Shown: in pieces, positions 126-63,525 of the stretch
How the letters are laid out: each line of letters begins with the position of its first letter
How positions within the stretch are numbered: the stretch's first letter is position 1
Origin: Vogesella sp. LIG4
GTDB taxonomy: Bacteria; Pseudomonadota; Gammaproteobacteria; Burkholderiales; Chromobacteriaceae
DNA length: 64,000 nt
Direction: 5' to 3'
NCBI RefSeq assembly: GCF_900090205.1
Contig: NZ_LT607802.1
Span: 2,792,928-2,856,927 of the forward strand
Position numbers and translations under genes: made by a program
The notes under the pieces: generated by a model
Told to the model about the DNA's origin: nothing
The model's database searches: none
Seen by the model: only the letters and a program-made list of their open reading frames with translations

Positions 126-148
126 GTTGGCCGCATGGCATCACCGCA

Positions 149-177
149 AAGGCAGCGAGCAATCGCTGCCTTTTTCT
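149..177 (+). terminator. Intrinsic terminator after the barrel gene
   Basis: A perfect 10-bp stem (AAGGCAGCGA / TCGCTGCCTT) with loop GCAA is followed by a T-rich run. It lies 23 bp beyond the barrel stop codon, just past a copy of the dispersed 10-mer. Confidence 0.85.
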
Positions 178-370
178 TTGCGCGCTTTGCCAGATGGATA
201 TTTTTACAGCGATAAATATGTAATTAGGTTTGCTTTTTGCATAAAAACCCATGCCGATGTGCTGGCAATAAATCCTTGTCGCTTTTGTGTATCGACATTT
301 GCCGCAGATGTCGCCAAGGTGACGCACCCCGCGACAAGGGGGGTGATAGAGCACACACATGGAGAAAAAA

Positions 371-1840
371 ATGCAAACACAGCACAGCGAAACCGGGCTG
401 CGGCGGGAGCTGAAAGCCCGCCACCTGTCGATGATCGCCATTGGCGGTTCCATCGGCACCGGCCTGTTCCTGGCCTCCGGCGCCACGGTGGCCACGGCTG
501 GCCCCGGTTCGGCCCTGCTGGCCTACGGTGTCATCGGCATCATGGTGTATTTCCTGATGACCAGCCTGGGTGAAATGGCTGCCTACCTGCCGGTATCCGG
601 CTCGTTCCAGGTTTACGGCTCGCGTTTCGTCGATCCGGCATTCGGTTTTGCCCTGGGCTGGAACTACTGGTTCAGCTGGGCGGTAACCGTGGCGGTGGAG
701 TTGGCCGCAGCATCCATCGTGATGGGCTACTGGTTTCCGGGCGTGCCCGGCCTGGTGTGGAGCGCGGCCTTCCTCGGCATCGTGTTCCTGTTCAACTATA
801 TCTCGGTGAAGGGTTTCGGCGAGTCGGAGTACTGGTTCTCGCTGCTGAAGGTCATCACCATCATCGCCTTCATCGGCACCGGCACGCTGATGATCTTCGG
901 CATCATGCATGGTGACCATGCGGCCAACTTTGCCCCTGGCCTGCACATGTTCGAAATCGGCGATGCGCCGTTTGTCGGCGGCATGCCGGCCTTCATTTCC
1001 GCCGCCATGGTGGTGGGCTTCTCTTTCATGGGCACCGAGCTGATCGGTGTGGCTGCCGGCGAGTCCGCCGACCCGGCCACCACCATTCCGCGTGCGGTAA
1101 AGCAGGTGTTCTGGCGCATCCTGATGTTCTACGTGCTGGCCATCGTGGTGATCAGCCTGATCCTGCCGTACAACGACCCGTCGCTGCTGAAGAACGGCAT
1201 GGAAGACGTGGGCGCCAGCCCGTTCACCCTGGTATTCAAGCGCGCCGGCTTCGCGCTGGCCGCCGGCATGATGAACAGCGTGATCCTTACCGCCATTCTG
1301 TCGGCGGGCAACTCCGGCCTGTATGCCTCCACCCGCATGCTGCACAACATGGCGCAACACGGCATGGCACCGCGCGTACTGGCCAAGCTGTCGCCGGGCG
1401 GCGTGCCGCGCCGCGCGCTGATCGCTACCACGGTGGTGGCCGCGCTATGCTTCCTGACATCGCTGGTGGACGAGAAGGGCGTGTACCTGTGGCTGCTCAA
1501 CGCCTCGGGCATGACCGGCTTCATCGCCTGGCTGGGCATTGCGGTTTGCCATTACCGCTTCCGCCGCGCCTACCTGCACCAGGGCGGCGAACTGCATGAG
1601 CTGCCGTACCGTGCACGCTGGTTCCCGCTGGGCCCGGTGCTGGCTTTCGGCATCTGCATGCTGGTGATGCTGGGGCAGAACTACGCCGCCTTTACCGGCA
1701 GCCGTGTCGACTGGATGGGCGTGATTGCCACCTATATCGGCATTCCGCTGTTCCTGGTGCTGTGGCTGGGTTACAAGTGGCGTCATCGCACCAGCGTGGT
1801 GCCACTGGCAGATGTCGACCTGGTGAGCAGCCGGGCGTAA
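371..1840 (+). CDS. lysP: Lysine-specific permease, APC superfamily
   Basis: A 489-residue, 12-helix cytoplasmic-membrane amino-acid permease, the same length as E. coli LysP. From memory of that protein the match is close along its whole length: the RRELKARHLSMIAIGGSIGTGLF start, GEMAAYLPVSGSF, FGFALGWNYW, GFSFMGTELIG and NASGMTGFIAWLGIA. It is expected to import L-lysine with protons. I chose ATG 371 because GGAG lies 6 bases upstream; ATG 359 in the same frame would add four residues and lacks a Shine-Dalgarno sequence. The gene stands alone, bounded by terminators. No L-box (lysine riboswitch) was recognised in the roughly 180-bp leader. Arginine permease is possible within the family but less likely. 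Confidence 0.88.
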   Translation: MQTQHSETGLRRELKARHLSMIAIGGSIGTGLFLASGATVATAGPGSALLAYGVIGIMVYFLMTSLGEMAAYLPVSGSFQVYGSRFVDPAFGFALGWNYWFSWAVTVAVELAAASIVMGYWFPGVPGLVWSAAFLGIVFLFNYISVKGFGESEYWFSLLKVITIIAFIGTGTLMIFGIMHGDHAANFAPGLHMFEIGDAPFVGGMPAFISAAMVVGFSFMGTELIGVAAGESADPATTIPRAVKQVFWRILMFYVLAIVVISLILPYNDPSLLKNGMEDVGASPFTLVFKRAGFALAAGMMNSVILTAILSAGNSGLYASTRMLHNMAQHGMAPRVLAKLSPGGVPRRALIATTVVAALCFLTSLVDEKGVYLWLLNASGMTGFIAWLGIAVCHYRFRRAYLHQGGELHELPYRARWFPLGPVLAFGICMLVMLGQNYAAFTGSRVDWMGVIATYIGIPLFLVLWLGYKWRHRTSVVPLADVDLVSSRA

Positions 1841-1846
1841 CTCCCG

Positions 1847-3134: not shown

Positions 3135-6100
3135 ATGTCCTTTCCGCTGCGTTCACAAAACATGTTGCGCCGCCTGCTGACAGGGGGCCGTGGCCGGCCG
3201 GTGGCTGCCTTGCTGCTGGCGATCCTGCTGTTGCTGCAGCTCGCCACCCAGCTGCCGCCCACCTGGCCCCAGCTGTCGCCGCCGCTACCGGCAGTGCTGG
3301 CCGTGGCGGGCGCACCGCTGGATGCCGCCCGCACCTGGCTGTTCGACAGCTTCCAGAAATTGATGCCGCGCAAGGTGCACAATCAGCCGGTGACCATTGT
3401 GGCCATCGACGAGAAAAGCCTGCGGCAAGTGGGGCAGTGGCCATGGCCGCGCGACAGGTTGGCCGCATTGATCGACAGCATCCACCGCCGCCAGCCAGCG
3501 GCACTGGGGCTGGATATCTACATGCCGGAGGCGGATCAGAGCTCGCCCGACCTGCTGGCGGCGCGCCTGCCCGCCAGCCAGCATGCGCTGGCCGACCAGC
3601 TGCGCGCCTTGCCCGGCAATGACCGCGTGCTGTCCCAGGCACTGGCTGCCGCGCCGACGGTGCTGGGCGCTGCGGGTTTCGACTTTCGTGCCTACACCAC
3701 CAGCACCGGCATGCGCAGCGTGCCGATGCGCGTGATGGGGGCCGACCCGCGGCCCTTCGTGCGTCACTATCCGCAAGTGCTGGCCAGCCTGCCGCAGCTG
3801 CAGGCCGCCGCCAGCGGCCAGGCGCTGTTGAGCGTGGATGCGCAGAGCGGCGGCGTGCGGCGCGTTGCCATGCTGGCCACGGTGGGCGAGCAGCTGGTGC
3901 CGGGGCTGGCACTGGAAATGTTCCGCGTCGGCACCGGCGATGATGCGATCCGGGTGAGCAGCAACGCGCATGGCGTGACATCGGTGCGGGTGGCCGAGCT
4001 GGAGGTACCCACCCAGGGCAATGGCGACATCTACCTGCACTTTGCCCGCCAGGCCGACGGCATGGCGCGCTATGTCTCGGCGGTGGATGTGATGCAGGGC
4101 CGGGTGGATGCCTCGATGCTGGCCGGCAAGCTGGTACTGGTGGGGCTGACCGGCTCCGGGCTCAACGATATGCGCTACACCGCGCTGCAGGAGCTGGTGC
4201 CGGGTATCGAGATCCAGGCCCAGGTGATGGAGACGCTGTACGACGGCACCTTCCTGCAGCGGCCCTGGTGGTTCCTGTGGGCGGAGTTGGGCACGGGGCT
4301 GCTGCTGGGCATGACCCTGCTGTGGCACATTCCGCGTGGCGACAGCGGCCCGGCGCGCTGGCTCAAGCAGCAGCCGCAGCGCGCGGTGTGGCTGAGTGTG
4401 GGCTTGGCATTGCTGGCCTATGCGCTGGGGCTGGCACTGTTCCAGTATCGCGGCCTGCTGCTGGATGTCAGTGCCATCGTGATCGAGCTGGTGCTGCTGC
4501 TGGCGGTGCTCTTGGGTAGCGGCATGCTGGCCAGCCTGGCCGATGCCCGCGTCAAGCTGGCTGGCCTGGTGGAAAGCGGCCTGGCGCTGGGGCGGCTGCA
4601 GCAGCGCGACAGCCTGTTGCGCACCACGCTGAATGTGGCCTGCGAGATGAGCTACTGCGAAGGCGCGGCGGTGCTGCTGCGCGGGGAGGACAATAGCCTG
4701 CGCTACGTGCTGCACACCTATCCGGGCGAGGTGCCGGCTAACGCACGATGGCGGCACAGCCTGCCGGGGCAGGTGCTGGCCAGTGGCGAATCGTGCCAGC
4801 TTGTCGGGCTGGCCGAAAGCGACGACAAGCTGGCGGCCAATACTTACGAGCTGCTGCGGCAGGTCGGCATTGAGGCGGACTCACTGCTGGCACTGCCGAT
4901 GAAGGCGCACGCGGACGAGGTGGTCGGGGTGATCCTGCTGTGCAATGCCCGCGATGACTACAGCAAGGAGCTGATTCCCTTCGACCCCAAGCTGCTGCCG
5001 TTCATGGAAGCGTTGGCCGCACAGGCGGCAGTGGCGATGGAAAACCTGGAGCTGGTGGAATCGCAGAAAGCGCTGATGGACGCGATGATCCGCATCATCG
5101 CCGGCGCCATCGATGCCAAGAGTCCGTACACCGGCGGCCATTGCGAGCGGGTGCCGGAGCTGGCCTTCATGTTGGCCGAGGCTGCCTGTGCTGTGGAGCA
5201 GGGGCCGCTGGCCGATTTTGCCTTCCGCAACGAGGACGAGTGGCGCGAGTTCCGCATCGGCGCCTGGCTGCACGACTGCGGCAAGGTCACCACCCCGGAA
5301 TACGTGGTGGACAAGGCCACCAAGCTGGAGACCATCTACAACCGCCTGCACGAGGTGCGCACCCGCTTCGAAGTGCTGTTGCGTGACGCGCGCATTGCCC
5401 GGCTGGAGGCCATCCATCTGCATGGCGCGGACCCGGAGCAGGAAGATGCAAGGTTGGCCGCACGCGAGGCCGAACTGCATGACGACTTCGCCTTCGTGGC
5501 AAGCTGCAACCAGGGTGGCGAATTCATGGCGCCGGAACGCATCGCACGGCTGCAGCGCATTGCCGCGCAAAGCTGGTGGCGCCATTTTGACGACCGGCTG
5601 GGGCTGTCGCAGGAGGAGGAACTGCGCTGCGCCGGCATGGCGCCGCAGGCCTTGCCGGCCGAGGAAAAACTGCTGGCCGACAAGGCGCAGCATCTGTTCG
5701 AGCGCCCGCCCAGCAAGGCGCTGGACCCGAAATACGGCTTCCGGCTGCAGGTGCCGCACTATCTTTACAACCAGGGCGAGCTGTACAACCTCAGCGTCGG
5801 CCGCGGTACGCTGACCGAGGAGGAACGCTTCAAGATCAACGAGCACATCATCCAGACCATCGTGATGCTGGATCAGATGCCGCTGCCCAAGTCACTGCGA
5901 CGGGTGCCGGAATACGCAGGCACCCACCACGAAACGCTGATCGGCAGCGGCTACCCGCGCAAGCTGGCCGCAGACGAGCTGTCGATACCGGCGCGCATCA
6001 TGGCCATTGCCGACATCTTCGAGGCGCTTACCGCGTCGGACCGGCCGTACAAGCGCGGCAAGACGCTGTCCGAGTCGGTGGCCATCCTGTACCGCTTCAA

Positions 6101-6257: not shown

Positions 6258-6260
6258 GCG

Positions 6261-7013
6261 TCAGCCGCCGTCACCATCGCCATCGCAGAACCACACCGCA
6301 TCCGGCAGCTGGCCGAACACCTGCTGCAGGCCCTCGCCCCAGCCCTGGCGCAGGGCCTGGAAGTAGGGGTCGTCCTCGGTAACGCGGTGGCGTGGTGCAA
6401 AGTCGAAGTTGTCCCGCTGCTGCCACAGCAGGTCGATGGGCAGGCCCACCGACAGGTTGGAGCGGATGGTGGAATCGAACGAGACCAGCGTGCACTTGAT
6501 CGCCTGCGCCAGTGAGGTGTCGTGGTGGATCACCCGGTCGATGATGGGCTTGCCGTACTTGGCTTCGCCTATCTGCAGATAGGGCGTGTCCGGTGTGGCT
6601 TCGATGAAATTGCCCTGCGGGTAGACCTGGAACAGCCGCGGCGCCTCGCCCTTGATCTGCCCGCCCAGCAGAAAGCTGCAGCTGTAGTCCACGCCCTGCG
6701 ACTGGGTCTGTCCGTCGCCGTCGCGGGCGATCACCTCGCGCACGGTGCGGCCCAGCAGCTCCGCCGCTTCGTACATGCTCTGCACGGTGTGCAGGTTGGC
6801 CGCATGGTGCTGCAGCCGGCTTTTCAGCAGGCTCACCACGCTCTGGGTGGTGGCGAGGTTGCCGGCGCTCAACAGCACGATCTGCCGCTCGCCCGGCACC
6901 GGGATCACGGTCATTTTGCGGAAGGTGGCCACGTGGTCCACCCCCGCGTTGGTGCGCGAATCGGAAGCGAAGATCAGCCCCTCGTTCAGCACCATGCCGA
7001 CACAGTAAGTCAT
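6261..7013 (-). CDS. Anbu, proteasome-like Ntn-hydrolase
   Basis: 250 residues beginning MTYCVG, so Met removal would expose the catalytic Thr expected of proteasome-fold peptidases. LIFASDSRTNAGVDHVATFRK is the hallmark start of the Anbu (ancestral beta subunit) family, and the QIVLLSAGNLATTQSVV segment follows the same fold. Anbu forms large open rings; its substrate is unsettled. The start overlaps the transglutaminase stop (ATGA), and it is the last gene of a five-gene minus-strand operon whose other members are the usual Anbu partners. The gene ends 3 bp from the convergent CHASE2 gene with no clear terminator between. ATG 7013 is chosen because upstream codons lie in the neighbour's frame. 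Confidence 0.9.
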   Translation of the reverse strand: MTYCVGMVLNEGLIFASDSRTNAGVDHVATFRKMTVIPVPGERQIVLLSAGNLATTQSVVSLLKSRLQHHAANLHTVQSMYEAAELLGRTVREVIARDGDGQTQSQGVDYSCSFLLGGQIKGEAPRLFQVYPQGNFIEATPDTPYLQIGEAKYGKPIIDRVIHHDTSLAQAIKCTLVSFDSTIRSNLSVGLPIDLLWQQRDNFDFAPRHRVTEDDPYFQALRQGWGEGLQQVFGQLPDAVWFCDGDGDGG

Positions 7014-7804
7014 TGCTGATCCGCCTCCGTTACCTGGGCGCGTGCCTGCAGCGCCTCGCTGCCGCCGCCGCGGCGCACACCGCGCACCGGGCTGGCGTCG
7101 GTGTAGTCCAGCCCCACCGCCAGCTTCAGGTGGTGGCGGTCCGGCAGCATGCGGTTGCTGATGTCGAAGCCCTGCCAGCGGCCGTCGGCATGTACCTCGG
7201 CCCAGGCGTGGCTGGCAACGTGGGTGTCGCGCTCGCTCAGCAGATAGCCGCTGACATAACGCGCCGGCAGGCCCAGGCTGCGGCAGGCGGCAATGAACAC
7301 GTGGCTGTGGTCCTGGCATACGCCGGCCCCCAGCGCGTAGGCGTCGCTGGCGGTGGTCGTGGCGCCGGTGACGCCGCCGGTGTAGGGCATGGCATCGGCT
7401 ACTGCCAGCATCAGCGCGGTGAGGCCGCTGCCGGCATCGGCGGCGATGGCCTCGGCATGGTTGGCCGCAAGCTGGCGGATGGCGGCGTCGGGCTCGGTGA
7501 GTGCGCTGTCGCGCAGGAATACCGACGGCAGCAGCACCTCGGCCTCGTCCGACCAGTCGTCACAGGTTTCCACCACGCCATGGGCGCGCAGGTGGATCTC
7601 GCTGTGCGGCGTGTCCAGGGTGAGCACGTGCAGGATGTTGCCATAGGCATCGGTGCTCTGGCTGGCGGCCACCGGCAGCTCCAGCTGCCAGCTGATGATG
7701 CGCTGGTGGCTGTTTTCCGGCGGTGTCAGCCGCAGGTACTGGGTGCTGTGGCTGACGGTGCCGTCGTAGCGGTACACGGTTTCGTGGTCGATGGTCAGTT
7801 GCAT
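7010..7804 (-). CDS. Transglutaminase-like cysteine peptidase of the Anbu operon
   Basis: 264 residues: an N-terminal beta domain (MQLTIDHETVYRYDGTVSHS) followed by a transglutaminase core. The catalytic triad is visible: Cys163 in GAGVCQDHSH, His199 in ASHAWAEV and Asp214 in FDISN. Cytoplasmic, with no signal peptide. Such proteins are presumed amidases or peptidases, or protein cross-linkers. Proteins of this type are commonly encoded beside alpha-E, circularly permuted ATP-grasp and Anbu, a set proposed to make and break a peptide-like tag or product. It overlaps Anbu by four bases and lies 9 bp from the GNAT gene. Confidence 0.88.
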   Translation of the reverse strand: MQLTIDHETVYRYDGTVSHSTQYLRLTPPENSHQRIISWQLELPVAASQSTDAYGNILHVLTLDTPHSEIHLRAHGVVETCDDWSDEAEVLLPSVFLRDSALTEPDAAIRQLAANHAEAIAADAGSGLTALMLAVADAMPYTGGVTGATTTASDAYALGAGVCQDHSHVFIAACRSLGLPARYVSGYLLSERDTHVASHAWAEVHADGRWQGFDISNRMLPDRHHLKLAVGLDYTDASPVRGVRRGGGSEALQARAQVTEADQQ

Positions 7805-7813: not shown

Positions 7814-8326
7814 TTAAGTGGGTGAGGACAGTGATCGTTGCCAGTAGGCCACGTCCAGCCAGCGGCCGAACTTGCGGCCAACCTGTTCGAACTGCGCCAC
7901 CTGCTTGAAGCCCAGTGCGCGGTGCAGCGCATCGCTGGCCGGGTTGGGTTGCGCCACGCCGCCGATCACCGTGCGCAGGCCGAGGTCGGTGAGCCGCTGC
8001 AGCAGCTCGCGGTACAGCAGCTTGCCCAGGCCCTGGCCCACGGTGGCCTGGCGCAGGTAGATGCTGGCTTCCACGCTGTGGCGGTAGGCCGGGCGCACGC
8101 GCCAGCGGCTGGCATAGGCATAGCCGAACAGCTCGCCGTCCTCGGCTTCGGCCACCAGCCAGGGCAGCCCCTGCGCCTGGGTGCCGGCGATGCGCTCGGC
8201 CATCTCGGCCACGCTTACCGGCTGTTCCTCGAAGGAGATGGTGGTGTACTCGATGTAGGGGTTGTAGATGGCGCAGACGGCGGCGGCGTCGTTCGGGCTC
8301 GCCTCGCGGATGATCAATTGACTCAT
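7814..8326 (-). CDS. GNAT-family N-acetyltransferase (phosphinothricin/methionine sulfoximine type)
   Basis: 170 residues with the GNAT fold. MSQLIIREASPNDAAAVCAIYNPYI and the acetyl-CoA loop around GQGLGKLLY (residues 97-105), followed by GLRTVIGGVAQPNPASDALH, are typical of the PAT/MddA subfamily that acetylates phosphinothricin, methionine sulfoximine or related small amines. Its start overlaps the alpha-E stop by four bases and its stop lies just before the transglutaminase, so it is locked into the Anbu operon. A GNAT is not part of the minimal Anbu set as I know it; it may modify the product of that pathway or simply ride along. Confidence 0.85.
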   Translation of the reverse strand: MSQLIIREASPNDAAAVCAIYNPYIEYTTISFEEQPVSVAEMAERIAGTQAQGLPWLVAEAEDGELFGYAYASRWRVRPAYRHSVEASIYLRQATVGQGLGKLLYRELLQRLTDLGLRTVIGGVAQPNPASDALHRALGFKQVAQFEQVGRKFGRWLDVAYWQRSLSSPT

Positions 8327-9246
8327 GCGGCCTCCAGGTAGGCGCCGTGCACCGCCGCGCCCAGCGCGTGGATCTGGTTGAGAAACTGCGCCAGGTAGGC
8401 GTGCAGCCCGCCGGCGAGGATGTTGTCGATCTGGTCGTAGCTCAGCTCGGCATGCAGGGTTGCGGCCAACCTTTTGGCGCGGTGGTCGGTATCGCCCTGG
8501 ATGCGTGGCAGCAGGTAGGCGATCTCGTCCACGCAGGCGCGCAGCGAGCGCGGCACGTCCGGGCGCAGGATCAGCAGCTCGGCCACCCGCCGCGCGCTCA
8601 GGCTGTCGCGGTACAGTTCGTGATAGGCCTCGAAGGCGCCCAGCGAGCGCAGCAGCGCACCCCACAGGTAGAAGTCGGCGGCGCTGTCGTCCAGTTCGTG
8701 GCCGATCAGGTGCGACTTCATGTCGATCAGCCGCGCCGTGCTGTCGGCGCGCTCCAGGAAGGAGCCCAGGCGGATGAAGGAATAGGCGTCGTTGCGCTGG
8801 ATGGTGCCGTAGGTGGTGCCGCGGAACTGGTTGACCCGCTCCTTCACCCAATCGAAGAAACCGGCCAGCGGGCGGCCCTCGGCCGCCATCTGCCGTGCTT
8901 CCAGCCAGCTGGCGTTGATGCTTTCCCATACCTCGCCGGAAATCTTGCCGCGCACGGCGTGGGCATTTTCGCGGGCGCGCTTCAGGCAGTTGATGATGCT
9001 GCTGGGGTTGGCCGCATCGAAGGCCATGAAGTGCAGTGCATCGCCGGCCGCCAGCTGGGGGTGGCGGGCGCGGCAGGCGTCCAGCGCGCCGGTGGTGGTC
9101 AGCGCGGCGACAATGTCCGCGCCGCCGCGGGACTGCGGCAGCAGCGACAGGCTGAGGGTTACGTCCAGCAGCCGTGCCAGGTTTTCGGCGCGCTCCATGT
9201 AGCGGCTCATCCAGTACAGCTGGGAAGCGGTGCGCGAGAGCATCAT
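8323..9246 (-). CDS. Alpha-E domain protein of the Anbu operon
   Basis: 307 mostly helical residues. The start MMLSRTASQLYWMSRYMERAENLARLLD is the conserved opening of the alpha-E family (DUF403), and GTTYGTIQRNDAYSFIRLGSFLERADSTARLID is its central conserved block. The biochemical role is not established. It is almost always coupled to a circularly permuted ATP-grasp and a transglutaminase, sometimes fused to the former. The start codon at 9246 is 2 bp from the ATP-grasp stop, and the stop overlaps the GNAT start. Cytoplasmic. Confidence 0.9.
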   Translation of the reverse strand: MMLSRTASQLYWMSRYMERAENLARLLDVTLSLSLLPQSRGGADIVAALTTTGALDACRARHPQLAAGDALHFMAFDAANPSSIINCLKRARENAHAVRGKISGEVWESINASWLEARQMAAEGRPLAGFFDWVKERVNQFRGTTYGTIQRNDAYSFIRLGSFLERADSTARLIDMKSHLIGHELDDSAADFYLWGALLRSLGAFEAYHELYRDSLSARRVAELLILRPDVPRSLRACVDEIAYLLPRIQGDTDHRAKRLAATLHAELSYDQIDNILAGGLHAYLAQFLNQIHALGAAVHGAYLEAA

Positions 9247-10930: not shown

Positions 10931-12529
10931 ATGCCGCCAATCTTTACCGAACAATCCCGCAGCCCGGGCAGCACGGTCGTCGGTGTATACCGGCCGTTGT
11001 CGCTGGCGGTGCTGTGGCAGGGCGGTAATGTGGCGGCACGCTGCTATCTGCTGCTGGCCTGGCTGTTGTCGCTGGGGCTGTGCCTGTGGCTGGGCGTGGT
11101 GCAGCTGTATGGCGGCTGGTACGGTTTTCAGGCGAATGTGGGCGAGCTGTCCTTCGTCATCAGCATCTACCCGCCGCTGACCATCGCCACGCTGTGGGTG
11201 CTGTGGTTCGGCTATGCCTGGGGCGCGCTGCTGGCCTATCTCACCACGCTGATGATCGGCGTTCTCTCCGGCTTGTCACCGGGCTGGTGCGTGCTGTTTG
11301 CCTTTGCCAACCCGCTTGGCCTGCTGGTGATGGCGCAGGTCTATCACCATGTCAATGTGCGCTATGTGCCGTCGTCGCTGGCATCGCTGCTGTTTTTCGT
11401 GACGGTCTGCTTCATTTCCGGCGTGTCCAGCGCCACCGGTTCCTTCATCTGGAGTTACAGCAACAAGCTGTCGGCACTGGGCGCGTTCCAGGCCTGGCAG
11501 GGCTGGTGGACCGGCAACTTCCTGCAGACGGTGCTGACCTGCGGCCCCTTGCTGCTGCTGACGCCGTGGTTGCAGCGCTGGCGCGACTACCGTTGGCCGC
11601 AAGTCGGGGACAGGCCGATGCTGCAATCGCACTGGGTGCGGCTGCTGGCACTGTTGTCGCTGGCGGGGGTGCTGGCTTTCCTGTGGCTATCCTTCCTGCT
11701 GGCGGATCGCAGCGTGATGACGCTGGGCGGTGACAGCTCCGGCGCCTGGCAGCAGCGCGCCATGCTGTACCGCGATTCGGCAATGGCGGTGTACTGGGTG
11801 CTGTCGGTGCTGCTGTTTGCCGTGGTGTTCCTTGGCTACCGCCTGTTCCGCCAGCGCACCTTGCAACTGAAACTGGCCGCGGAGCGGGTAGCCTATGAGC
11901 GCGACCTGGCGCTGCGGCGGCAGAGCGAATCGGAAGTGGCGCGCCAGGCCTTGCACCAGCTCAACCTGGAGTTGGCCGCACGCATGAACGAGGTGGAGCA
12001 GTTGCAGGCGCAACTGCACGAACAGGCCAGCCGCGACCCGCTCACCGCCCTGTACAACCGCCGCTATCTGCACCAGCGCCTGCCGCAGCTGCTGCAGCGC
12101 GCCGAGCGCAACGGCAAGCCGCTGTGCCTGGTGCTGATCGACCTGGATCATTTCAAGGTGGTGAACGACCAGCACGGCCACGCCATTGGCGATGCCGCGC
12201 TGAAACAGTTTGCCGCGCTGTTCTGTGGTCTGCTGCAGCCGGAAGACATTGCCGCGCGCTACGGCGGCGAGGAGTTCTGCCTGGTGCTGCCGCAGCGCAG
12301 CGTCGAGCAGGTTGAGGTGCTGCTGCACAATCTGCAGGCCGCCTATGGCGGGCTGCGCATCGCCTGCAAGCAGGGGGAGCTCAGTGGCTTGAGTTTTTCC
12401 GCCGGCATTGCCTTCATGGATGGAACGCAGAGCGAAGACGCGCTGCTGCAGCAGGCGGATGCCGCGCTGTACCAGGCCAAGGCGCAGGGCCGCCATACCT
12501 GGCGCCTGTACGAGCCCTGGCTGGAATAA
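10931..12529 (+). CDS. Membrane-bound diguanylate cyclase (MASE-like sensor + GGDEF)
   Basis: 532 residues from ATG 10931; an in-frame GTG at 10832 would add 33 residues that look like leader sequence. The N-terminal 300 residues hold roughly eight hydrophobic helices, resembling a MASE1-type integral membrane sensor, then a coiled-coil linker (about 330-375) and a GGDEF domain. The active motif is GGEEF at residues 445-449, which is catalytically competent. The RxxD inhibitory site five residues upstream is absent (QPED), so product inhibition through that site is not expected. It makes cyclic-di-GMP from two GTP. Monocistronic, divergent from the Anbu operon. Confidence 0.82.
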   Translation: MPPIFTEQSRSPGSTVVGVYRPLSLAVLWQGGNVAARCYLLLAWLLSLGLCLWLGVVQLYGGWYGFQANVGELSFVISIYPPLTIATLWVLWFGYAWGALLAYLTTLMIGVLSGLSPGWCVLFAFANPLGLLVMAQVYHHVNVRYVPSSLASLLFFVTVCFISGVSSATGSFIWSYSNKLSALGAFQAWQGWWTGNFLQTVLTCGPLLLLTPWLQRWRDYRWPQVGDRPMLQSHWVRLLALLSLAGVLAFLWLSFLLADRSVMTLGGDSSGAWQQRAMLYRDSAMAVYWVLSVLLFAVVFLGYRLFRQRTLQLKLAAERVAYERDLALRRQSESEVARQALHQLNLELAARMNEVEQLQAQLHEQASRDPLTALYNRRYLHQRLPQLLQRAERNGKPLCLVLIDLDHFKVVNDQHGHAIGDAALKQFAALFCGLLQPEDIAARYGGEEFCLVLPQRSVEQVEVLLHNLQAAYGGLRIACKQGELSGLSFSAGIAFMDGTQSEDALLQQADAALYQAKAQGRHTWRLYEPWLE

Positions 12530-12588
12530 GGGCAGCGCGCACCGCTGGCCGCGGCATGCGGCCAACCATGGCGGGCGACAAAACAAAA

Positions 12589-15957: not shown

Positions 15958-16120
15958 CCTGGGCTAGGTTGGCCGCAAGCTTAGCACTCAGCACCGCACA
16001 GTGGCAGCACATGACCGTCTGCTTTTTAGGGGCCGGTCTTACTTGGCCTTCGCAGCAAGAGGGCCACATCAGGGGCTGGGTTGCCGCGGTGGCTCCGCAT
16101 GGGTGCGCTCATAACGCAAT
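15958..16120. other. Gene-less cassette
   Basis: Between two attC-like sites there is no frame with a convincing start, ribosome site or protein character; the best open frame would begin with TTG inside the dispersed 10-mer. This piece holds the only exact copy of that 10-mer in the array (15968-15977). Non-coding cassettes are known from chromosomal integrons and may carry promoters or RNAs; none is evident here. Confidence 0.5.
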
Positions 16121-19699: not shown

Positions 19700-20226
19700 T
19701 CCGCTTTTCCATGAAAGCATCGACTGTTTGGGGTCGGTAACTGCCATGCACAAACAAAGACTTGGCTGCCCGCTCCGACCGGGCCTTTGCCATTCCCTCT
19801 GGTTTCCTTACTCCGGATAGCCATGCGACCAACCTCGCCAAGCGTCAGCCGAAGCGATTGAGCGATTGCTTTATTCGCCATGGATTGCACTTCACTTCAT
19901 TCAATTTGCTATCCAGATGCCGGCGGTGCGGTGCAATGCTTCAACAGCGTCTTGCTGGGCGCGGTGTCATTGCCGCCGGGCTTGCTGTATGGCACAGGTG
20001 AAGACACGCCCGTCGCCGCTGTTTGCAGGCCGTCAGCAGGGTGCCCCCTCATGCAGGTCGGGCGGCATCCCCATTTATGCCAGCATGCAGTGCGGTTCCT
20101 GCCCTATCATGTCCATGACAATTCTTGATTCAACCCTTTGCAAATAGCGATGCGTGATAGCCGGCGGCAACGTTGGCCGCAAGCACGCATGCTTGCCACG
20201 TGCACCTTTACAAGCTGTTGCCCGCC
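19700..20226. other. Non-coding right edge of the cassette island
   Basis: About 530 bp without a convincing gene. It opens with TCCGCTTTTCC and TTTGGGGTCGGTAACTGCC, again like the other cassette leaders. A modest GCCCG / CGGGC hairpin followed by CTTTG lies at about 19768-19787. Composition returns to GC-rich toward the right, and a motif copy at 20172 marks the return to ordinary chromosome. Confidence 0.45.
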
Positions 20227-24729: not shown

Positions 24730-24853
24730 ATCGCTGTATGGCGCGGCGGGTGGTGGCGGGTACGCAAGTACAACAGGGGTGCCTCCACCGGCCGTGCCGG
24801 CCGCTTGCGGCCAACCTTTTCCTTGAAACACTCCTGGCATTCAAGGCTTCTCC

Positions 24854-26016: not shown

Positions 26017-26040
26017 CTGGCTTGCGGCCAACCTTTACGC

Positions 26041-37073: not shown

Positions 37074-37121
37074 CTTTGTGGCGCAGGGCTTGCGGCCAAC
37101 CTTGCGGGTCATGGCAGCATG

Positions 37122-38493: not shown

Positions 38494-38521
38494 TGCGGCC
38501 AACCTTTGCAGGTTGGCCGCA
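38494..38521. terminator. Inverted pair of the dispersed 10-mer after acnD
   Basis: TGCGGCCAACCT and AGGTTGGCCGCA form a perfect 12-bp stem with loop TTGC. It starts 9 bp past the acnD stop on the minus strand. Lacking a strong T run it may be a weak terminator, but two complete 10-mers facing each other at a gene end is the arrangement seen with Neisseria uptake sequences. Confidence 0.7.
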
Positions 38522-48164: not shown

Positions 48165-48439
48165 TGCAACTGACCCTGTATTTTCGCGAGTATTGCAGCC
48201 TGTGCCACGACATGCTGGCACGACTGCGCCCCTGGCAGCAGCAGTACGGCTTTGCCATCGACGTGGTGGACGTGGATGCCGACCCGGTGCTGGAGGAACG
48301 CTTCAACGAACTGGTGCCGGTGCTGATGCACGGCGAGCAGGAAATCTGCCACTGGCACCTGGACGAAGCAAGGTTGGCCGCATACCTGACAACACCGCAG
48401 CCGGAACACTTGGCTGCACAGGGCGGCGAAATCGGCTAG
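48164..48439 (+). CDS. Glutaredoxin-like thiol protein (DUF836 type)
   Basis: 91 residues, thioredoxin fold. [21 protein letters not shown] places a CxxC redox pair at Cys11/Cys14; [28 protein letters not shown] is the conserved remainder with cis-Pro. Common between mucD and lepA in Betaproteobacteria. The start overlaps the mucD stop (TGATG). The dispersed motif at 48373 encodes RLAAY near its end. Confidence 0.85.
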
Positions 48440-53409: not shown

Positions 53410-53436
53410 GCCACAAGCCACAGCAAGGTTGGCCGC

Positions 53437-53802
53437 ATGTTTGCGAATACTCCCGAACCGCCGTACTGGGCGGTGATCTTCAGCAGCCAGCGCACTACCG
53501 GTGATGGTGGTGGCGACGACGGCTATGGCGACATGGCCGCGCGCATGGTGCAGCTGGCCGGCGAGCAGCCGGGCTTTCTCGGTGCCGAGAGCGCGCGCGA
53601 TGCCGACGGCTTCGGCATCACCGTCTCCTACTGGGCCAGCGAACAGGCGATTGCCGCCTGGAAGGCCGATGCCGAGCACCGCCTGGCGCAGCAGCAGGGC
53701 TTTGCCCGCTGGTATGCCGGCCTGGCGCTGCGGGTAGCGCAGGTGGCGCGCGCCAAAGTCTGGCAGCGGCCGGAGCGGGGCGATGCAGCCGGGCAAGGTT
53801 GA
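53437..53802 (+). CDS. Antibiotic biosynthesis monooxygenase-like protein
   Basis: 121 residues, ferredoxin-like ABM fold: YWAVIFSSQRT, MAARMVQLAGEQPGFLGAESARDADGFGITVSYWASEQAIAAWKADAEHRLAQQQG and WYAGLALRVAQV. Members are cofactor-free oxygenases or heme-degrading enzymes, often just small dimeric proteins of unknown role. It lies between era and recO, and its end overlaps recO by 20 bp. Its ATG (53437) is formed from the last base of the motif copy at 53428-53437. Confidence 0.8.
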   Translation: MFANTPEPPYWAVIFSSQRTTGDGGGDDGYGDMAARMVQLAGEQPGFLGAESARDADGFGITVSYWASEQAIAAWKADAEHRLAQQQGFARWYAGLALRVAQVARAKVWQRPERGDAAGQG

Positions 53803-54514
53803 CCGCCAGCCGGCCTACGTACTGCACACCCAGCCCTACAAGGAAACCAGCCTGCTGGTGGAGGTGCTGAGCCGCGATCACGGCCGTTTCACCCTGGTGG
53901 CACGCGGCGCACGTCGCCCGCGCTCCGACCTGCGCGGCCTGCTGTTGCCATTCCAGCCGCTGCAGCTGTCCTGGTTCGGCAAGGGCGAATTGCGCACCCT
54001 GCACGTGGCCGACTGGCGCGGCGGTGTGCCGCAGTTCGCCGGCGAGCGCCTGGTGTGTGGCTACTACCTGAACGAACTGGTGCTGCGCCTGGCGCCGCGC
54101 GACGACCCGGCGCCGGAACTGTTCAAACTGTACGATCGCAGCGTGCGCACCCTGGCTGGCGACGAAACATTCAGCAATGTACTGCGCCGCTTCGAGCTGG
54201 CGCTGCTGGCCTTGCTGGGCTATGCGCCGGAGTTGGCCGCAGACACCGCCGGTCAGGCGCTGCAGCCGGAAGCCAGCTATCTGTGCCGCTTCGGCGAGGC
54301 GCCGCAGCGGGTGGCGCCGATCGAACGTCCGCCGGCCCGCAGCTGCGTCCTGAGCGGTGCCAGCCTGCTGGCACTGGCGGCGGGAGACCTCACCCTGGCG
54401 CAGACCCGGCGCGATGCCCGCCTGCTCACCCGCGTGCTGCTGGACGAGCTGCTGGGGCAGCAGCCGCTGGCCACCCGCGAATTACTGACCACTTTATACG
54501 CGCTGGCCGAGTAG
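53783..54514 (+). CDS. recO: DNA repair protein RecO
   Basis: 243 residues. N-terminal OB fold ([36 protein letters not shown]) and a helical C-terminal domain. The zinc-finger-like Cys pattern (CRFG, SCVLSG) is reduced. Loads RecA onto SSB-coated DNA with RecR. Overlaps the preceding gene by 20 bp. A motif copy (54232) encodes ELAAD. Confidence 0.93.
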
Positions 54515-55287: not shown

Positions 55288-55683
55288 ATGATCTACGGCA
55301 TCGGTACCGATATCGCCCGCATCGAACGCTTCGAGGCGATGTATGCGCGCTGGGGGCAGGAAATCGGCCGCCGGCTATTGGCCGCGCCGGAGCGCGAAGA
55401 GCTGGCGCAGGCGGCAAAGCCGGCGCGCTTCCTGGCCAAGCGCTTTGCCGCCAAGGAGGCGCTGGGCAAGGCGCTGGGCACCGGCATCCGCGAGCCGGTG
55501 CTGCTCACCGCCATCGCCGTGACCCACGACACGCTGGGCAAGCCGATGTTCGCCTTCGACGAGCCGCTGAAGGCGTATATCGAGGCACGCGGCATTGTCA
55601 GCGTGCACCTGTCGATTTCCGACGAACAACAACATGCACTGGCGTTCGTGGTTTGCGAAACCGCCGGTGCGGCCAACCTGTGA
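55288..55683 (+). CDS. acpS: Holo-[acyl-carrier-protein] synthase
   Basis: 131 residues. [22 protein letters not shown] (metal-binding Asp) and [21 protein letters not shown] (Glu) are diagnostic. Transfers 4'-phosphopantetheine from CoA to ACP. Follows pdxJ by 10 bp, the usual pair. The motif copy at 55668 (minus orientation) encodes the final GAANL residues at the C-terminus. Confidence 0.96.
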
Positions 55684-56827: not shown

Positions 56828-56863
56828 TGCTTGTCGGGCCATGGCAAGGTTGGCCGCAAGGCG

Positions 56864-58174: not shown

Positions 58175-59158
58175 ATGCCGCCTCCTCCATCCCCTTACCT
58201 GTCACGCCGCGACTGCCTGCATGCGGTACTGCTGGCCGTGTTGTCCGGCGCCGTGGCGGCTTGCCGGCCGCCGGTGCCGCTGCTGCGGGTCGGCAGCAAC
58301 GGCTGGCCTGGTTACCTGATGCTGGAGTTGGCCGCACAAAGCGGGCTGTATGCGCCCGAGCAGATTCGCGTCATCCGCTTTCCTTCCTCCACCCTGGTCA
58401 TGCAGGGCCTGTCTTCCGGTGCGCTGGAAGCGGCCTGCCTGACGCTGGACGAAGTGCTGAGCATGCGGGCGGAAGGGGTGCCGCTGCAGGTGGCGGCAGT
58501 ACTGGATATTTCCGCCGGTGCTGACATGCTGCTGGTGCGGGATGGCATTGCCACATTGGCGCAGCTGGCCGGCAAGCGCATCGGCGTGGAGCAGAGCGCG
58601 GTGGGCGCGGTGATGCTGGACGCGGTGTTGCAGCAGGCGCATCTGCAGCCGGCGGACATCACGCTGGTGCCGTTGCTGGCGAACCGGCATGAGCAGGCGT
58701 TCCTGTCCGGCGAGTTGGACGCGGTGGTGACGTTCGAACCGCATGCCAGCCGACTGATGGCCGCCGGGGCAAAACTGCTGTTTTCCAGCATGGCGATTCC
58801 CGGTCGCATCCTCAATGTGCTGGCGGTACGCAGCGATGTGGTGGATGAACAGCACCGGCACCTGCAACTGCTGCTGGACGGCCACTTCCGCATGCTGACC
58901 GGTTTCATCCAGCAGGAGCGCGGCGTGCTGTCCGGCCTGGCCACGCTGCTGGCCACCGACGGGCAGGCGGTGAAGTCGCTGTACTGGGGGCTGCGCATGC
59001 CGGACCGGCAGGAGAACCAGGACTGGATCACCGGCCAGTCGCCGCTGCTGCTGCCGGCGGCCAGGCAGCTGCAGCAGGTGATGCAGGCAGCTGGGCTGCT
59101 GCGCAGCAACGCGTCGCTGGACCAATTGCTGCTGCCATTGTCGGGTGGCGCATCGTGA
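58175..59158 (+). CDS. Substrate-binding lipoprotein, NMT1/SsuA-like
   Basis: 327 residues. The N-terminal signal contains RR and ends in VAAC, a lipobox-like Cys at about 30. The rest is a periplasmic-binding fold of the nitrate/sulfonate/thiamine-precursor type: GSNGWPGYLMLELAAQSGLY, IRVIRFPSSTLVMQGLSSGALEAACLTLDEVL, LAGKRIGVEQSAVGAVMLDAVL and NRHEQAFLSGELDAVVTFEP. No transporter genes follow; instead its stop overlaps the start of a GGDEF-EAL protein, so it probably senses a ligand for that protein rather than feeding an importer. The motif (58327) encodes ELAAQ. Confidence 0.8.
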   Translation: MPPPPSPYLSRRDCLHAVLLAVLSGAVAACRPPVPLLRVGSNGWPGYLMLELAAQSGLYAPEQIRVIRFPSSTLVMQGLSSGALEAACLTLDEVLSMRAEGVPLQVAAVLDISAGADMLLVRDGIATLAQLAGKRIGVEQSAVGAVMLDAVLQQAHLQPADITLVPLLANRHEQAFLSGELDAVVTFEPHASRLMAAGAKLLFSSMAIPGRILNVLAVRSDVVDEQHRHLQLLLDGHFRMLTGFIQQERGVLSGLATLLATDGQAVKSLYWGLRMPDRQENQDWITGQSPLLLPAARQLQQVMQAAGLLRSNASLDQLLLPLSGGAS

Positions 59159-61992
59159 TGCGCGTCGGCTCCTTCAAGCTGCTGTCCAGCCTGGCGGTGA
59201 TAGGCGTGGTGCTGCTGACCCTGGGCGGCGCCTTTTTCATTGCGGTGGACAGCCGCACCCAGTCCGAATACATCGATGCCCAGCGCGACGGCCTGCAGGA
59301 CGTATTCCGCCTGAGCCAGCTCGCCCAGAGCGAGAGCAGCCACAGTGAAATCGACAGCGAGCTGGCGATGCTGGCCACCGATCCGCGCGTGCGCCAGGTG
59401 CTGCTGGCCGATCCGCAGCATGTCATCCGCTATGCGCTGGACCGCCAGCTGCTGGGGCAGGGCCTGGACAGCCAGGACGGCATCACGCCGGAGCTGCTGC
59501 AGGCGCTGCACGACAGCAGGCTGGGCACGGCGCTGGTGGACAAGTCGCAGCAGTCGGTGCTGGTGGGCATCGGCTATACCCCGCTGGAAAAGGACACCGT
59601 GCGCAGCAGTCAGCGTGGCCTGGTGCTGATCCGCTTCCAGCTGCACGACACGCTACGGCAGATGAGCTGGCAGGTGGCACAGGTGTTTGTCTGGCCGGCG
59701 GCGATGCTGTTGCTGCTCGTGCTGCTGCTGGGCTGGCTGGCGCAGCGTTACGTGCTGGGGCCGCTGGGGCGGCTACGCCTGGCCGTGCTCGACTATGCGG
59801 CCAACGGTAGTTTGCAGCCGCTGCCGCAACAGGGCGTGAGCGAGGTGCGCGGCTTGCTCAAGGCCTTCAACGCCATGCAGCAGCATCTGCAGGATACGCT
59901 GGACATGCTCAAGACCCAGCGCTTGGCCGCAGCGCAGCTGGCGCAGGAGCGCGAAGCCTTGCTGCAGGCGATTCCCGACCACCTGTTCGAAATGTCGCCG
60001 GAAGGGCGCTTCCTGCAGGTGTGGTCCAGCAGCCAGCGCGGGCTGGCCGAATCGCGCGAGCAGCTGCTGGGCAAGCTGGTGCACCAGGTAATGCCGCTGG
60101 ATGCGGCCGATACGGTGTGCCAGGCGATTGGCGAGGCCCTGGCCGAGGGCGTGTCGCGCGGGCGGCGCATCTGCCTGTTTGTCGATTGCCAGCCGCGCTG
60201 GTTCGAGCTGTCCGCCGCGCGCAAGGAAGCCGCCGGCAGCGAGGTCAGCTGCATCCTGCTGGCGCACGACAGCACGCTGCGCAAGCACGCCGAAGACGAG
60301 CTGCAGCTATGGGCGCAAGTGTTCGCCGCCGCGCATAACGGCATCCTGGTCACCGACAGCTTCCGCAACATCGTGCAGGTGAACGCCGCCTTTACCCGCA
60401 TTACCGGCTACGCGGCGGAGGACATCGTGGGCAAGACGCCGAGCATCCTGTCCTCCGGGCGGCACGACCAGGCGTTCTATCACCGCATGTGGCAGGAAAT
60501 CACCACCCGTGGCCACTGGCAGGGCGAAATCTGGAACCGCCGCAAGAGTGGCGAGATCTTTCCGGAGTGGCAGTCGATTTCCGCGGTACGTGGCGAGGAT
60601 GGCGAAATCAGCCACTACATCAGCGTGTTCAGCGACATCAGCAGCCAGAAGGAGGCCGAGCAGTACATCCGGCGGCTGGCCTATTTCGACAGCCTTACCG
60701 GGCTGCCCAACCGCGCGCTGCTGCAGGATCACGCCAGCCAGGCGCTATCGCTGTCGCGGCACGACGATACACCGCTGGCGCTGATGTTCATCGACCTGGA
60801 CCGCTTCAAGAACATCAACGACACCCTGGGTCACAGTATCGGCGACCAGTTGCTGGTAGAGGTTGGCCGCAGGCTGCTGGCGCTGCTGCAGGAAAAAGAC
60901 ACCCTGACGCGGCTGGGCGGTGACGAGTTCATCATCCTGCTGCCGGAAACCGATGAATCCGCCGCCGGCCACCTGGCCGAGCGGGTAGTGCGGGAGCTGT
61001 CCACGCCGTATCACCTGAGCGGCTACGAGCTGATCACTACACCGTCCATCGGCATCGCCATGGCGCCGGTGGATGGCAGCAACCTGGAGGAGCTGCTGCG
61101 TGCCGCCGACGCTGCCATGTACCGCGCCAAGGCCGAGGGGCGCAGCACCTTCCGCTTCTTTACCGCGCAGATGCAGCAGCGTTCCGCAGCGCGGCTGAAG
61201 CTGGAGGCCGAATTGCGCCGCGCGCTGGAAAAGCGCGAGCTGCAGCTGTACTACCAGCCGCAGAGCGATATGCACGGCCACTTGATCGGCATCGAGGCGC
61301 TGCTGCGCTGGCAGCATCCGGAACTGGGCATGGTGGCGCCGGTGGAATTCATTCCGCTGGCGGAAGAAAGCGGCCTGATCGTGCCCATCGGCATGTGGGT
61401 GCTGGAAGAAGCCATTGCGCAGATGCGCAACTGGCGCGAACGCGGCATCCACGTGCCGATAGTGGGCGTCAACCTGTCGGCGCTGCAATTCCGCCAGCCG
61501 ATGCTGGTAGAGCAGGTGGCACGCCTGCTGCACGAGGCGGCCTTGCCGGCGGAGTGCCTGGAGCTGGAGCTGACCGAAAGCCTGGTGCTGGATGATCCGG
61601 ACGATGCGCTGGGGCTGATGGAGCGCCTGCACCAGCAGGGTGTGCGGCTGGCCATCGACGACTTCGGTACCGGCTACTCCTCGCTCAACTACCTGCGGCG
61701 CTTCCCGGTGGACCGGCTGAAGATAGACCGCAGCTTCGTGCAGGATCTGGCGCAGGGGCGGGGTATCGCCATCGTGCGCGCCATCATCAGCCTGGCGCAT
61801 TCACTGGGCTTCGTCACCATTGCCGAGGGGGTGGAAACGCCGGAGCAGCTGGAGCAGCTGCGGCGGCTGCGCTGCGACCAGGTGCAGGGCTTCCTGTTCG
61901 CGCGGCCGATGTCGGTGCGCAACCTGGAGGACTGGCTGCTGCGCCACCGCAGCGTGGGGCCGGATGGCGAAAGCTGGACCTTCGACATCTGA
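59158..61992 (+). CDS. Membrane PAS-GGDEF-EAL dual cyclic-di-GMP enzyme
   Basis: 944 residues: N-terminal helix (about 8-30), periplasmic sensor domain (about 35-175), second helix (about 178-200), HAMP-like linker, two PAS domains (about 265-385 and 390-505), GGDEF and EAL domains. GGDEF is at 587-591 (active), with no RxxD inhibitory site (EKD precedes TLTRL). EAL begins at 713 in IEALLRWQHP and DDFGTGYSSLNYL is intact, so phosphodiesterase activity is also expected. ATG 59158 overlaps the stop of the binding-protein gene (TGATG), implying a ligand-sensing pair across the membrane. Confidence 0.88.
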   Translation: MRVGSFKLLSSLAVIGVVLLTLGGAFFIAVDSRTQSEYIDAQRDGLQDVFRLSQLAQSESSHSEIDSELAMLATDPRVRQVLLADPQHVIRYALDRQLLGQGLDSQDGITPELLQALHDSRLGTALVDKSQQSVLVGIGYTPLEKDTVRSSQRGLVLIRFQLHDTLRQMSWQVAQVFVWPAAMLLLLVLLLGWLAQRYVLGPLGRLRLAVLDYAANGSLQPLPQQGVSEVRGLLKAFNAMQQHLQDTLDMLKTQRLAAAQLAQEREALLQAIPDHLFEMSPEGRFLQVWSSSQRGLAESREQLLGKLVHQVMPLDAADTVCQAIGEALAEGVSRGRRICLFVDCQPRWFELSAARKEAAGSEVSCILLAHDSTLRKHAEDELQLWAQVFAAAHNGILVTDSFRNIVQVNAAFTRITGYAAEDIVGKTPSILSSGRHDQAFYHRMWQEITTRGHWQGEIWNRRKSGEIFPEWQSISAVRGEDGEISHYISVFSDISSQKEAEQYIRRLAYFDSLTGLPNRALLQDHASQALSLSRHDDTPLALMFIDLDRFKNINDTLGHSIGDQLLVEVGRRLLALLQEKDTLTRLGGDEFIILLPETDESAAGHLAERVVRELSTPYHLSGYELITTPSIGIAMAPVDGSNLEELLRAADAAMYRAKAEGRSTFRFFTAQMQQRSAARLKLEAELRRALEKRELQLYYQPQSDMHGHLIGIEALLRWQHPELGMVAPVEFIPLAEESGLIVPIGMWVLEEAIAQMRNWRERGIHVPIVGVNLSALQFRQPMLVEQVARLLHEAALPAECLELELTESLVLDDPDDALGLMERLHQQGVRLAIDDFGTGYSSLNYLRRFPVDRLKIDRSFVQDLAQGRGIAIVRAIISLAHSLGFVTIAEGVETPEQLEQLRRLRCDQVQGFLFARPMSVRNLEDWLLRHRSVGPDGESWTFDI

Positions 61993-62009
61993 GCCTGAGG
62001 TTGGCCGCA

Positions 62010-62036
62010 TGCAAAAGGCCCGCCGATGGCGGGCCT
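62010..62036 (-). terminator. trpE terminator
   Basis: Stem AGGCCCGCC / GGCGGGCCT with a 3-base loop; on the minus strand it is followed by TTTTGC. A motif copy (62000) lies right beside it, between the convergent genes. Confidence 0.8.
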
Positions 62037-62061
62037 GGTCATTGCAACACGGTAAGGGCGA

Positions 62062-63525
62062 TCAGGCGTCCAGACCCTGCTGCACCAGCGCGGCGGCGCG
62101 TACTACCGCGCGCGCCTTGTTCTGGGTTTCCTGCCATTCCGATTCCGGCACCGAGTCGGCGACGATGCCGGCGCCGGCCTGCACGTACAGGGTGTCGTTC
62201 TTGATCACCGCGGTGCGGATGGCAATCGCCATGTCCATGTCGCCGGTAAAGCCAAGGTAGCCGACGGCGCCGCCGTACACGCCGCGCTTGGTGGGCTCGA
62301 ACTGGTCGATGATTTCCATCGCCCGCACCTTGGGCGCGCCGGACAGCGTACCGGCCGGGAAGGTGGCCTTGAGGATGTCGATGTTGGACACCGCCGGCTT
62401 CACCGTGCCTTCCACGCTGGAGACAATGTGCATCACGTGCGAGTAGCGCTCGATCACCATATTGTCGGTGATGCGCACGCTGCCGGTGTCGGCCACGCGG
62501 CCAACGTCGTTGCGGCCCAGGTCCATCAGCATCACGTGCTCGGCGATTTCCTTCGGATCGGCCAGCAGCTCGTCGGCCAGTGCCTGGTCTTCCTCGCGGC
62601 TCTTGCCGCGCGGGCGGGTGCCGGCGATCGGGCGCACCGTCACGGTATCGTCCTCGCGACGCACCAGGATCTCCGGCGAGGCGCCCACCACGTGGAAGTC
62701 GTCGAAGTGGTAGTAGAACATGTACGGCGACGGGTTCAGGCTGCGCAGCGCGCGGTACAGCGACAGCGGTGCGTCGGTGTAGGGCATGCTCATGCGCTGC
62801 GACAGCACCACCTGCATGATGTCGCCGTCCAGGATGTATTGCTTGGCTTCGCCCACCGCCTGCTTGAACGGCTCCTGGCCGTATTCGGATACCGCCTCGG
62901 TGGCCGGTGACGGCAGCGACAGCGGAATGCTCACGTTCTCACGCAGCTTGCCGCGCAGCTGGTTCAGGCGCGTCTGTGCCTTCTGCAGCGCGTTGGGTAC
63001 CGCCGGGTCGGCGTAGACCACCAGGTAGAGCTTACCGGACAGGTTGTCCACCACGGCCAGTTCTTCCGACAGCATCAGCAGGATGTCCGGGGTGCCGATC
63101 GGGTCCGGCTTCTGCGTTGCGGCCAACCTTTTCTCGACGTAGCGCACGGTGTCGTAGCCGAAATAGCCCACCAGGCCACCGGTAAAGCGCGGCAGGCCGG
63201 TGATCGGCGGGGTGTTGAAGCGCGCCATGAAGCTGTCGATGAAACCCAGCGGGTCGCCTTCGTGGCGCTCGATCACCTTGTCGCCGTACTCCACCTGTAC
63301 GCTCTGCCCCTGCACGCGCAGGCGGGTGGTGGCCGGCAGGCCGATGAAGGAGTAGCGGCCGAAGCGCTCGCCGCCCACTACCGATTCCAGCAGGTAGGAG
63401 TAGGGCTGGTTGGCCAGCTTCAGGTAGACCGACAGCGGGGTGTCCAGGTCGGCGAACAGTTCCAGGGTGACGGGGATGCGGTTGTAGCCGGCAGCGGCCA
63501 GCTCGGCAAAGCGTTGTGGCGTCAT
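62062..63525 (-). CDS. trpE: Anthranilate synthase component I
   Basis: 487 residues of the chorismate-binding family. [39 protein letters not shown] (feedback-site region), [63 protein letters not shown] and [24 protein letters not shown] are standard. Converts chorismate and glutamine-derived ammonia to anthranilate. gph lies upstream, the usual neighbour in Betaproteobacteria. The motif copy (63118) encodes part of KRLAATQK. Confidence 0.96.

Follow-up and report, generated by a model that had tools for sequence, protein, structure and literature searches.

What maintains a single 10-base word in 40 exact copies across 64,000 nucleotides of a bacterial chromosome? The stretch that raises this question comes from Vogesella sp. 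LIG4 (hereafter the window: the whole 64,000-nt stretch, whose numbering is used for positions). An earlier note, made from the letters alone, counted 40 copies of GTTGGCCGCA from 126-135 to 63118-63127 (25 plus, 15 minus) and proposed a distinct uptake signal in another Neisseriales lineage, recognised by a ComP-like minor pilin. A recount gave the same 40 copies, and the observation is correct, and understated. We conclude that Vogesella very probably uses GTTGGCCGCA, preceded by a weak AA(G) and followed by an A, as its DNA uptake sequence, with a ComP-like pilin as the reader; that DNA is taken up, that this pilin binds it and that copies spread through transformation are our inferences. 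The proposal is supported in that its computable predictions held, from the excess, the occurrence in every one of the 13 genus genomes and the dialects to the placement at gene ends and in inverted pairs, the conservation and the genes. We judge the Neisseriales lineage of the host to be Vogesella, Chromobacteriaceae, and NCBI taxonomy likewise places Vogesella in Chromobacteriaceae, Neisseriales.

Within the window, a third-order Markov model predicts 0.43 copies of GTTGGCCGCA, 100 dinucleotide shuffles gave a mean of 0.56 and a maximum of 3, and each single-base variant has at most three copies. The excess is not regional, because the LIG4 genome (one contig, 4,147,242 bases) carries 2,895 copies, against 8 for the reversed-pattern control; restriction to the region of the window is thereby refuted. 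These thousands of copies lie genome-wide on both strands (1,458 plus, 1,437 minus), as in the neisserial DNA uptake sequence (DUS). In 484 kb sampled across the genome, we found 325 copies where 3.7 were expected. The core is sharp: one-mismatch variants in the same 484 kb total 113 (113.3 expected), with only a few raised (+10 G, 22 versus 5.3 expected; +1 C, 12 versus 3.6; +6 T, 5 versus 0.8), those changed at +2 to +4 mostly depleted and the +7 C-to-T variant at 3 copies (3.1 expected). The extended flank consensus that the earlier note had proposed survives as a weak bias, weaker than claimed: among the 325 copies, A stands at -3 in 182 and at -2 in 178 (0.55 bit each), G at -1 in 175 (0.16 bit), A at +11 in 119 (0.26 bit) and G at +12 in 159.

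The word is a property of the genus. The TrpE encoded in the window is 89% identical to those of Vogesella urethralis, Vogesella margarita and a Neisseriaceae bin; Chromobacterium (80 and 82%) follows, then a Pseudogulbenkiania bin (79%). Copies number 10 in 21 kb, 14 in 21 kb and 8 in 13 kb at the three nearest TrpE loci, and at most one at each of the other 77 named loci. Across 61 genomes of the family, GTTGGCCGCA is dense in all 13 genomes of the genus (presumably all Vogesella; 1,871-2,895 copies) and sparse in the 48 genomes of nine sister genera (8-58), some of which have dialects of their own. When 399 genomes of the order were counted, none outside the genus exceeded 52 copies. Two metagenome bins titled Bordetella parapertussis (L105, L123) have TrpE proteins 67-69% identical to that of Vogesella, like other environmental betaproteobacteria, and their titles may be wrong.

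The sister dialects emerged from a prior-free count of 10-mers in stretches of 11 sister genomes, where GTTGGCCGAA or GTTGGCCGAG was the top word in seven and the dialect word came second in an eighth (G036, 4 in 20 kb); no word stood out in the stretches of G044, G030 and G017. Over whole genomes, GTTGGCCGAA has eight carriers with 183-2,168 copies (G010 1,368, G036 579, G037 2,168, G038 1,245, G045 1,851, G046 1,104, G047 183, G048 893), with at most 78 elsewhere in the family and at most 47 outside it in a 300-genome sample of the order. GTTGGCCGAG is dense in G034 (1,940) and G035 (1,590), with at most 165 elsewhere in the family. Dialects thus follow lineages: three dialects occur in seven of ten genera, and 23 of the 61 family genomes are carriers, leaving 38 without a dialect. 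G010 is the lone carrier among the 10 genomes of its genus (the Aquitalea group), and its tag extends to GTTGGCCGAAG, with G at +11 in 17 of 19 copies (stretches L045, L046). By identical pilins in protein records, G034 is Crenobacter cavernae and G036 is Crenobacter sp. SG2303; because NCBI taxonomy puts Crenobacter under Neisseriaceae, the family boundary of the carriers is a question of taxonomy. G036 has mixed, thinner tags (579 GTTGGCCGAA and 165 GTTGGCCGAG), perhaps a dialect in transition or decay. When 14 sister copies were aligned to Vogesella, three fell exactly on a Vogesella copy with the dialect base alone changed (two of them one inverted pair in G045), and the remaining 11 had no Vogesella copy at the site; under eight Vogesella copies aligned to non-carriers, no such matched pair was found.

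Placement also resembles that of the neisserial DUS, with enrichment between genes, at gene 3' ends and in inverted pairs. In 464 kb of the genome holding 307 copies, open reading frames (ORFs) were called crudely, dropping those shorter than 90 codons and those whose third-position GC was low; 217 copies fall inside ORFs (0.575 per kb) and 90 between them (1.037 per kb; p for the intergenic excess 7e-6). Density is highest in convergent spacers (30 copies in 8.5 kb, 3.52 per kb), followed by tandem spacers (45 in 28.5 kb, 1.58 per kb), divergent spacers (9 in 14.4 kb, 0.62 per kb) and spacers longer than 1.5 kb (4 in 24 kb, 0.17 per kb). The intergenic share is lower than the roughly 40% first estimated, both here and in the window (13 of 40, likewise by a crude ORF call).

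Tail-to-tail pairs within 20 bases number 132 in the genome (10.6 expected), and exactly abutted pairs, which form the perfect 20-base palindrome TGCGGCCAACGTTGGCCGCA, number 75 (0.5 expected). Spacing in 100 of the 132 pairs is 0 in 62, 1 and 2 in one each and 5-17 in 36, the last with a hairpin-like peak at 6-8. The palindrome occurs in all 13 genus genomes (15-104 each), and of 25 examined for placement 24 were distinct: 10 convergent, 7 tandem, 6 in ORFs and 1 unclear. The upstream match of GTTGGCCGCA copies to the palindrome is all-or-little (10 copies full, two at 5-9 letters), which might reflect reading by a dimer or template-switch completion of the small central AACGTT palindrome; either would fit.

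Between Vogesella species, the tag is kept much more often than the words around it. We compared orthologous sites from 21 loci, dropping same-genome pairs and alignments under 500 bases; each site enters in both directions and for several species, so the rows are not independent. Below 80% identity, the exact 10-mer was kept at 236/545 sites versus 92/2172 for neighbouring 10-mers; in the next two identity classes at 106/199 and 200/265 versus 160/792 and 295/1046; at 90-95% at 226/269 versus 494/1068; and above 95% at 14/17 versus 45/62. Lost copies below 80% identity mostly carry three or more mismatches (246/309, with one mismatch in 21), and at 85-95% one mismatch is commonest (37/65 and 24/43). 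Selection or transformation drive acting on whole copies predicts the excess of intact copies observed.

Open frames for ComEC, DprA and a ComP-like minor pilin are present in the genome, so the check for comP and pilin genes came out as the earlier note had expected; the pilin gene lies outside the window (G000:C1:1559002-1559418, G000 being the LIG4 genome). Both the sequence of its soluble part and Foldseek favour this candidate as ComP, the first three PDB matches of its structural model being ComP entries, which makes it the type IV pilin closest to ComP in sequence and, by Foldseek on that model, in fold. In the comparison labelled VIA, its first match was ComP and a second ComP entry tied with PilV; the candidate is below the Pfam cut-off. 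In an alignment of 17 relatives (A1), the C-terminal cysteine pair alone is invariant, and the motif N(T/A/V)DxGx(Y/F) is common to 12 of 14 carriers and 0 of 3 non-carriers. Berry 2016 (PMC4906244) describes in Neisseria ComP a DD region with two disulfides and a DNA-contacting beta1-beta2 loop; the candidate keeps one of the two cysteine pairs, and its motif would, judged by position in the sequence, sit at about that loop. The bit score of the ComP-like pilin separates carriers from non-carriers incompletely. A FimT-like pilin gene (L003/L007) lies just upstream of comP in the genome.

How far, then, is this a known system? According to Frye 2013 (PMC3630211), the Neisseriaceae DUS has two further bases 5' of its 10-mer core, occurs in thousands of copies with lineage dialects and inverted pairs at terminators, and has ComP as receptor. 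The Vogesella tag resembles it in density, in placement, in its pattern of dialects and in its type of receptor, the candidate pilin having the type IV pilin fold like ComP. Frye 2013 gives CTG at +6 to +8 as invariant across the eight described dialects and as essential in the meningococcus, whereas GTTGGCCGCA, GTTGGCCGAA and GTTGGCCGAG all have CCG there; the neisserial A at +10 is shared by GTTGGCCGCA and GTTGGCCGAA and lost in GTTGGCCGAG (the GAG dialect). King3DUS, in that source, shows the same A/C change at +9 as the Vogesella tag. Against seven dialects, whose letters are in part provisional, AGGTTGGCCGAA matches AG-mucDUS in register at 9/12 positions (shuffle p 0.01) and AGGTTGGCCGCA at 8/12 (p 0.08, not significant). 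Because the core (CCG for CTG) and the receptor disulfides (two in Neisseria ComP, one invariant cysteine pair in the 17 aligned relatives) differ, we regard the tag as a new variant and not a member of the described DUS set. The uptake signal sequence (USS) of Pasteurellaceae has the core AAGTGCGGT; the Vogesella tag is like it in density and in the principle of a genomic self tag, but is an unrelated 10-mer without a long informative flank and is not of the USS type. Frye 2013 reports Chromobacterium, Pseudogulbenkiania, Lutiella and Laribacter to lack an obvious DUS. Among the papers listed from the open PMC literature (subscription papers and preprints lie outside this scope), we found no report of this tag, whether under its letters or for Vogesella, for Chromobacteriaceae (Chromobacterium, Aquitalea and Laribacter included) or for Crenobacter; for Pseudogulbenkiania, Frye 2013 alone was listed.

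One alternative keeps the uptake sequence and changes its reader, to another pilin (L001, L002 or the FimT-like protein encoded upstream of comP) or to a later step. Two other pilins of the genome exceed the ComP_DUS cut-off, the FimT-like gene stands beside comP, the candidate is without ComP's second cysteine pair, and the fold family is broad, because a profile of these pilins matches 5,936 proteins at E<=1e-5, with Pseudomonas PilE-type pilins among the 120 matches listed. Against this, soluble-part sequence and Foldseek favour the candidate, and a scan of about 1.5 kb upstream detected a pilin-like start in only 7/13 Vogesella and 1/10 other carriers, although such a motif scan can miss divergent starts. 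We consider a different reader unlikely. A relic, in which an ancestral uptake sequence outlived a system now dead, would suit the open PMC literature, where we found no report of competence for Vogesella among the papers listed; it sits badly with the intact copies at 90-95% identity and with the open ComEC, DprA and ComP frames, and we hold it to be very improbable.

A polar signal for chromosome processing (for example a Chi-like hotspot, or a sequence that guides FtsK) would also be expected in high copy number and in one genus alone, yet the strong orientation bias with replication typical of that class is not seen: 176 copies lead and 149 lag in the 484 kb (p 0.15; replichores read from the GC skew of the sampled stretches), and intragenic copies run 112 along and 105 against their genes. 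Gene ends, inverted pairs and perfect palindromes are favoured as well, which a polar signal would not lead one to expect, and its probability is close to nil. Hardly more credible is a dispersed repeat, of the repetitive extragenic palindrome (REP) or miniature inverted-repeat transposable element (MITE) type, or a set of terminator hairpins: the enrichment at convergent gene ends and the 132 inverted pairs recall such elements, but flank information is small beyond about four weak positions, most copies lie inside ORFs on either strand, and tail-to-tail pairs within 20 bases cover at most 264 of the 2,895 copies. On orientation, flank, placement and conservation evidence, we reject the polar-signal, repeat-element, terminator and relic readings.

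Under the preferred reading, an uptake sequence read by the ComP-like pilin, a competent cell would bind tagged double-stranded DNA through this minor pilin on its type IV pilus, and pilus retraction, ComEC and DprA would import and recombine it. Since tagged fragments would enter and recombine at a higher rate, copies arising by mutation would spread, intact copies would be kept, and the tag would accumulate in the core genome. In some sister genera, GTTGGCCGAA or GTTGGCCGAG would be the tag of the same system.

These results extend the uptake-sequence system beyond the genera for which we found a description, and the CCG dialects are an exception to the constancy of the CTG core. Seven genera share three dialects, and carriers stand beside non-carriers (in the Aquitalea group, one genome of ten), which offers a natural series on the joint change of pilin and tag. 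The genus also has a genetically workable environmental host in V. indigofera OSW_575, for which PMC12826045 describes conjugation, allelic replacement and the pigment gene igiD. Far more tentatively, and with the odds against it, Chromobacteriaceae and their kin might form a separate ComP/uptake-sequence branch with a CCG core and single-disulfide receptors, in which the Vogesella receptor reads abutted copies as a dyad, as if two pilins stood side by side.

Other tags were sought in 12 of the 38 non-carriers (Aquitalea, 3 genomes, 120 kb; Chromobacterium, 4, 180 kb; genus g8, 3, 120 kb; genus g4, 2, 100 kb), and no word was outstanding to the degree seen in dense carriers. In Chromobacterium (L055, L056, L185-L190, L198), GGTGCGCGAC occurs 12 times in 180 kb (0.96 expected) and might be a thinly spread signal of a different type. 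Non-carriers may hold a sparse tag, since the same count gives an equally strong signal for the tag of G048, a sparse carrier (7 versus 0.37). Two genomes of g8 (G040, G043) show a slight excess of GAA words (62 and 45 versus controls 13 and 11) and GAG words (92 and 85 versus 21 and 17), perhaps a faded tag. In the order sample, several small genomes of family f18 have 15-34 copies of GTTGGCCGCA versus 1-6 for controls (G123, 34 versus 2), which may belong to another repeated word. As for viruses, the 80 loci listed as matching AAGGTTGGCCGCAAG contain the 10-mer 83 times in 764 kb; because none has more than three, there is no tag-dense virus among them.

The copies in the window are listed in Table 1, with ORF identities taken from ORF position and Pfam and ORF calls again crude; the placements proposed earlier in an acnD-type aconitase, trpE, acpS and an NlpA/MetQ-type lipoprotein were upheld on this basis.

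Table 1. Exact copies of GTTGGCCGCA in the 64,000-nt window
Position	Strand	Setting
126..135	+	intergenic
700..709	+	inside amino-acid permease ORF 359-1840
919..928	-	inside amino-acid permease ORF 359-1840
3458..3467	+	inside CHASE2/GAF/HD ORF 3135-6257
5012..5021	+	inside CHASE2/GAF/HD ORF 3135-6257
5453..5462	+	inside CHASE2/GAF/HD ORF 3135-6257
6795..6804	+	
7460..7469	+	
7873..7882	-	
8461..8470	-	
9007..9016	+	
11592..11601	+	inside GGDEF ORF 10832-12529
11971..11980	+	inside GGDEF ORF 10832-12529
12557..12566	-	intergenic, directly past GGDEF ORF 10832-12529
15968..15977	+	intergenic, sole copy between 12567 and 20171
20172..20181	+	
21894..21903	+	intergenic
23973..23982	-	inside NlpA/MetQ-type lipoprotein ORF 23920-24729
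24806..24815	-	intergenic
26023..26032	-	intergenic
28443..28452	+	intergenic
32942..32951	+	
33348..33357	-	
34795..34804	+	
37091..37100	-	intergenic
38494..38521		two copies, inverted (tail-to-tail) pair, 8-base spacer, between prpF and acnD
39973..39982	+	inside acnD-type aconitase ORF 38530-41127
41583..41592	-	
42803..42812	-	inside citrate synthase-family ORF 41748-42899
48373..48382	+	intergenic
53428..53437	+	
54232..54241	+	inside recO ORF 53783-54514
55668..55677	-	3' end of acpS ORF 55288-55683
56849..56858	+	intergenic
58327..58336	+	
59796..59805	-	
60862..60871	+	
62000..62009	+	intergenic
63118..63127	-	inside trpE ORF 62062-63525

The sampled stretches contain nine tag-free gaps of more than 5 kb, some of them ended by a stretch edge. 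Seven have a GC content of 0.516-0.595 (sample mean 0.639), and the two in the window have 0.599 and 0.640. Ten ORFs tested from these gaps comprise three ABC-transport parts, one each of porin, hydantoinase, acyltransferase, hydrolase and ImpA_N, and two that match no family; genes of phages or transposases were absent from the ten, so a reading of the gaps as mobile DNA is unsupported. Three of the low-GC gaps (L059, L073, L074) span 7.8-12 kb, and the ImpA_N type VI secretion domain belongs to an ORF of L059. Within the window, 15000-20000 has a GC content of 0.45-0.55 against 0.63, a single tag and two long ORFs that match no Pfam family, and looks like recently acquired DNA.

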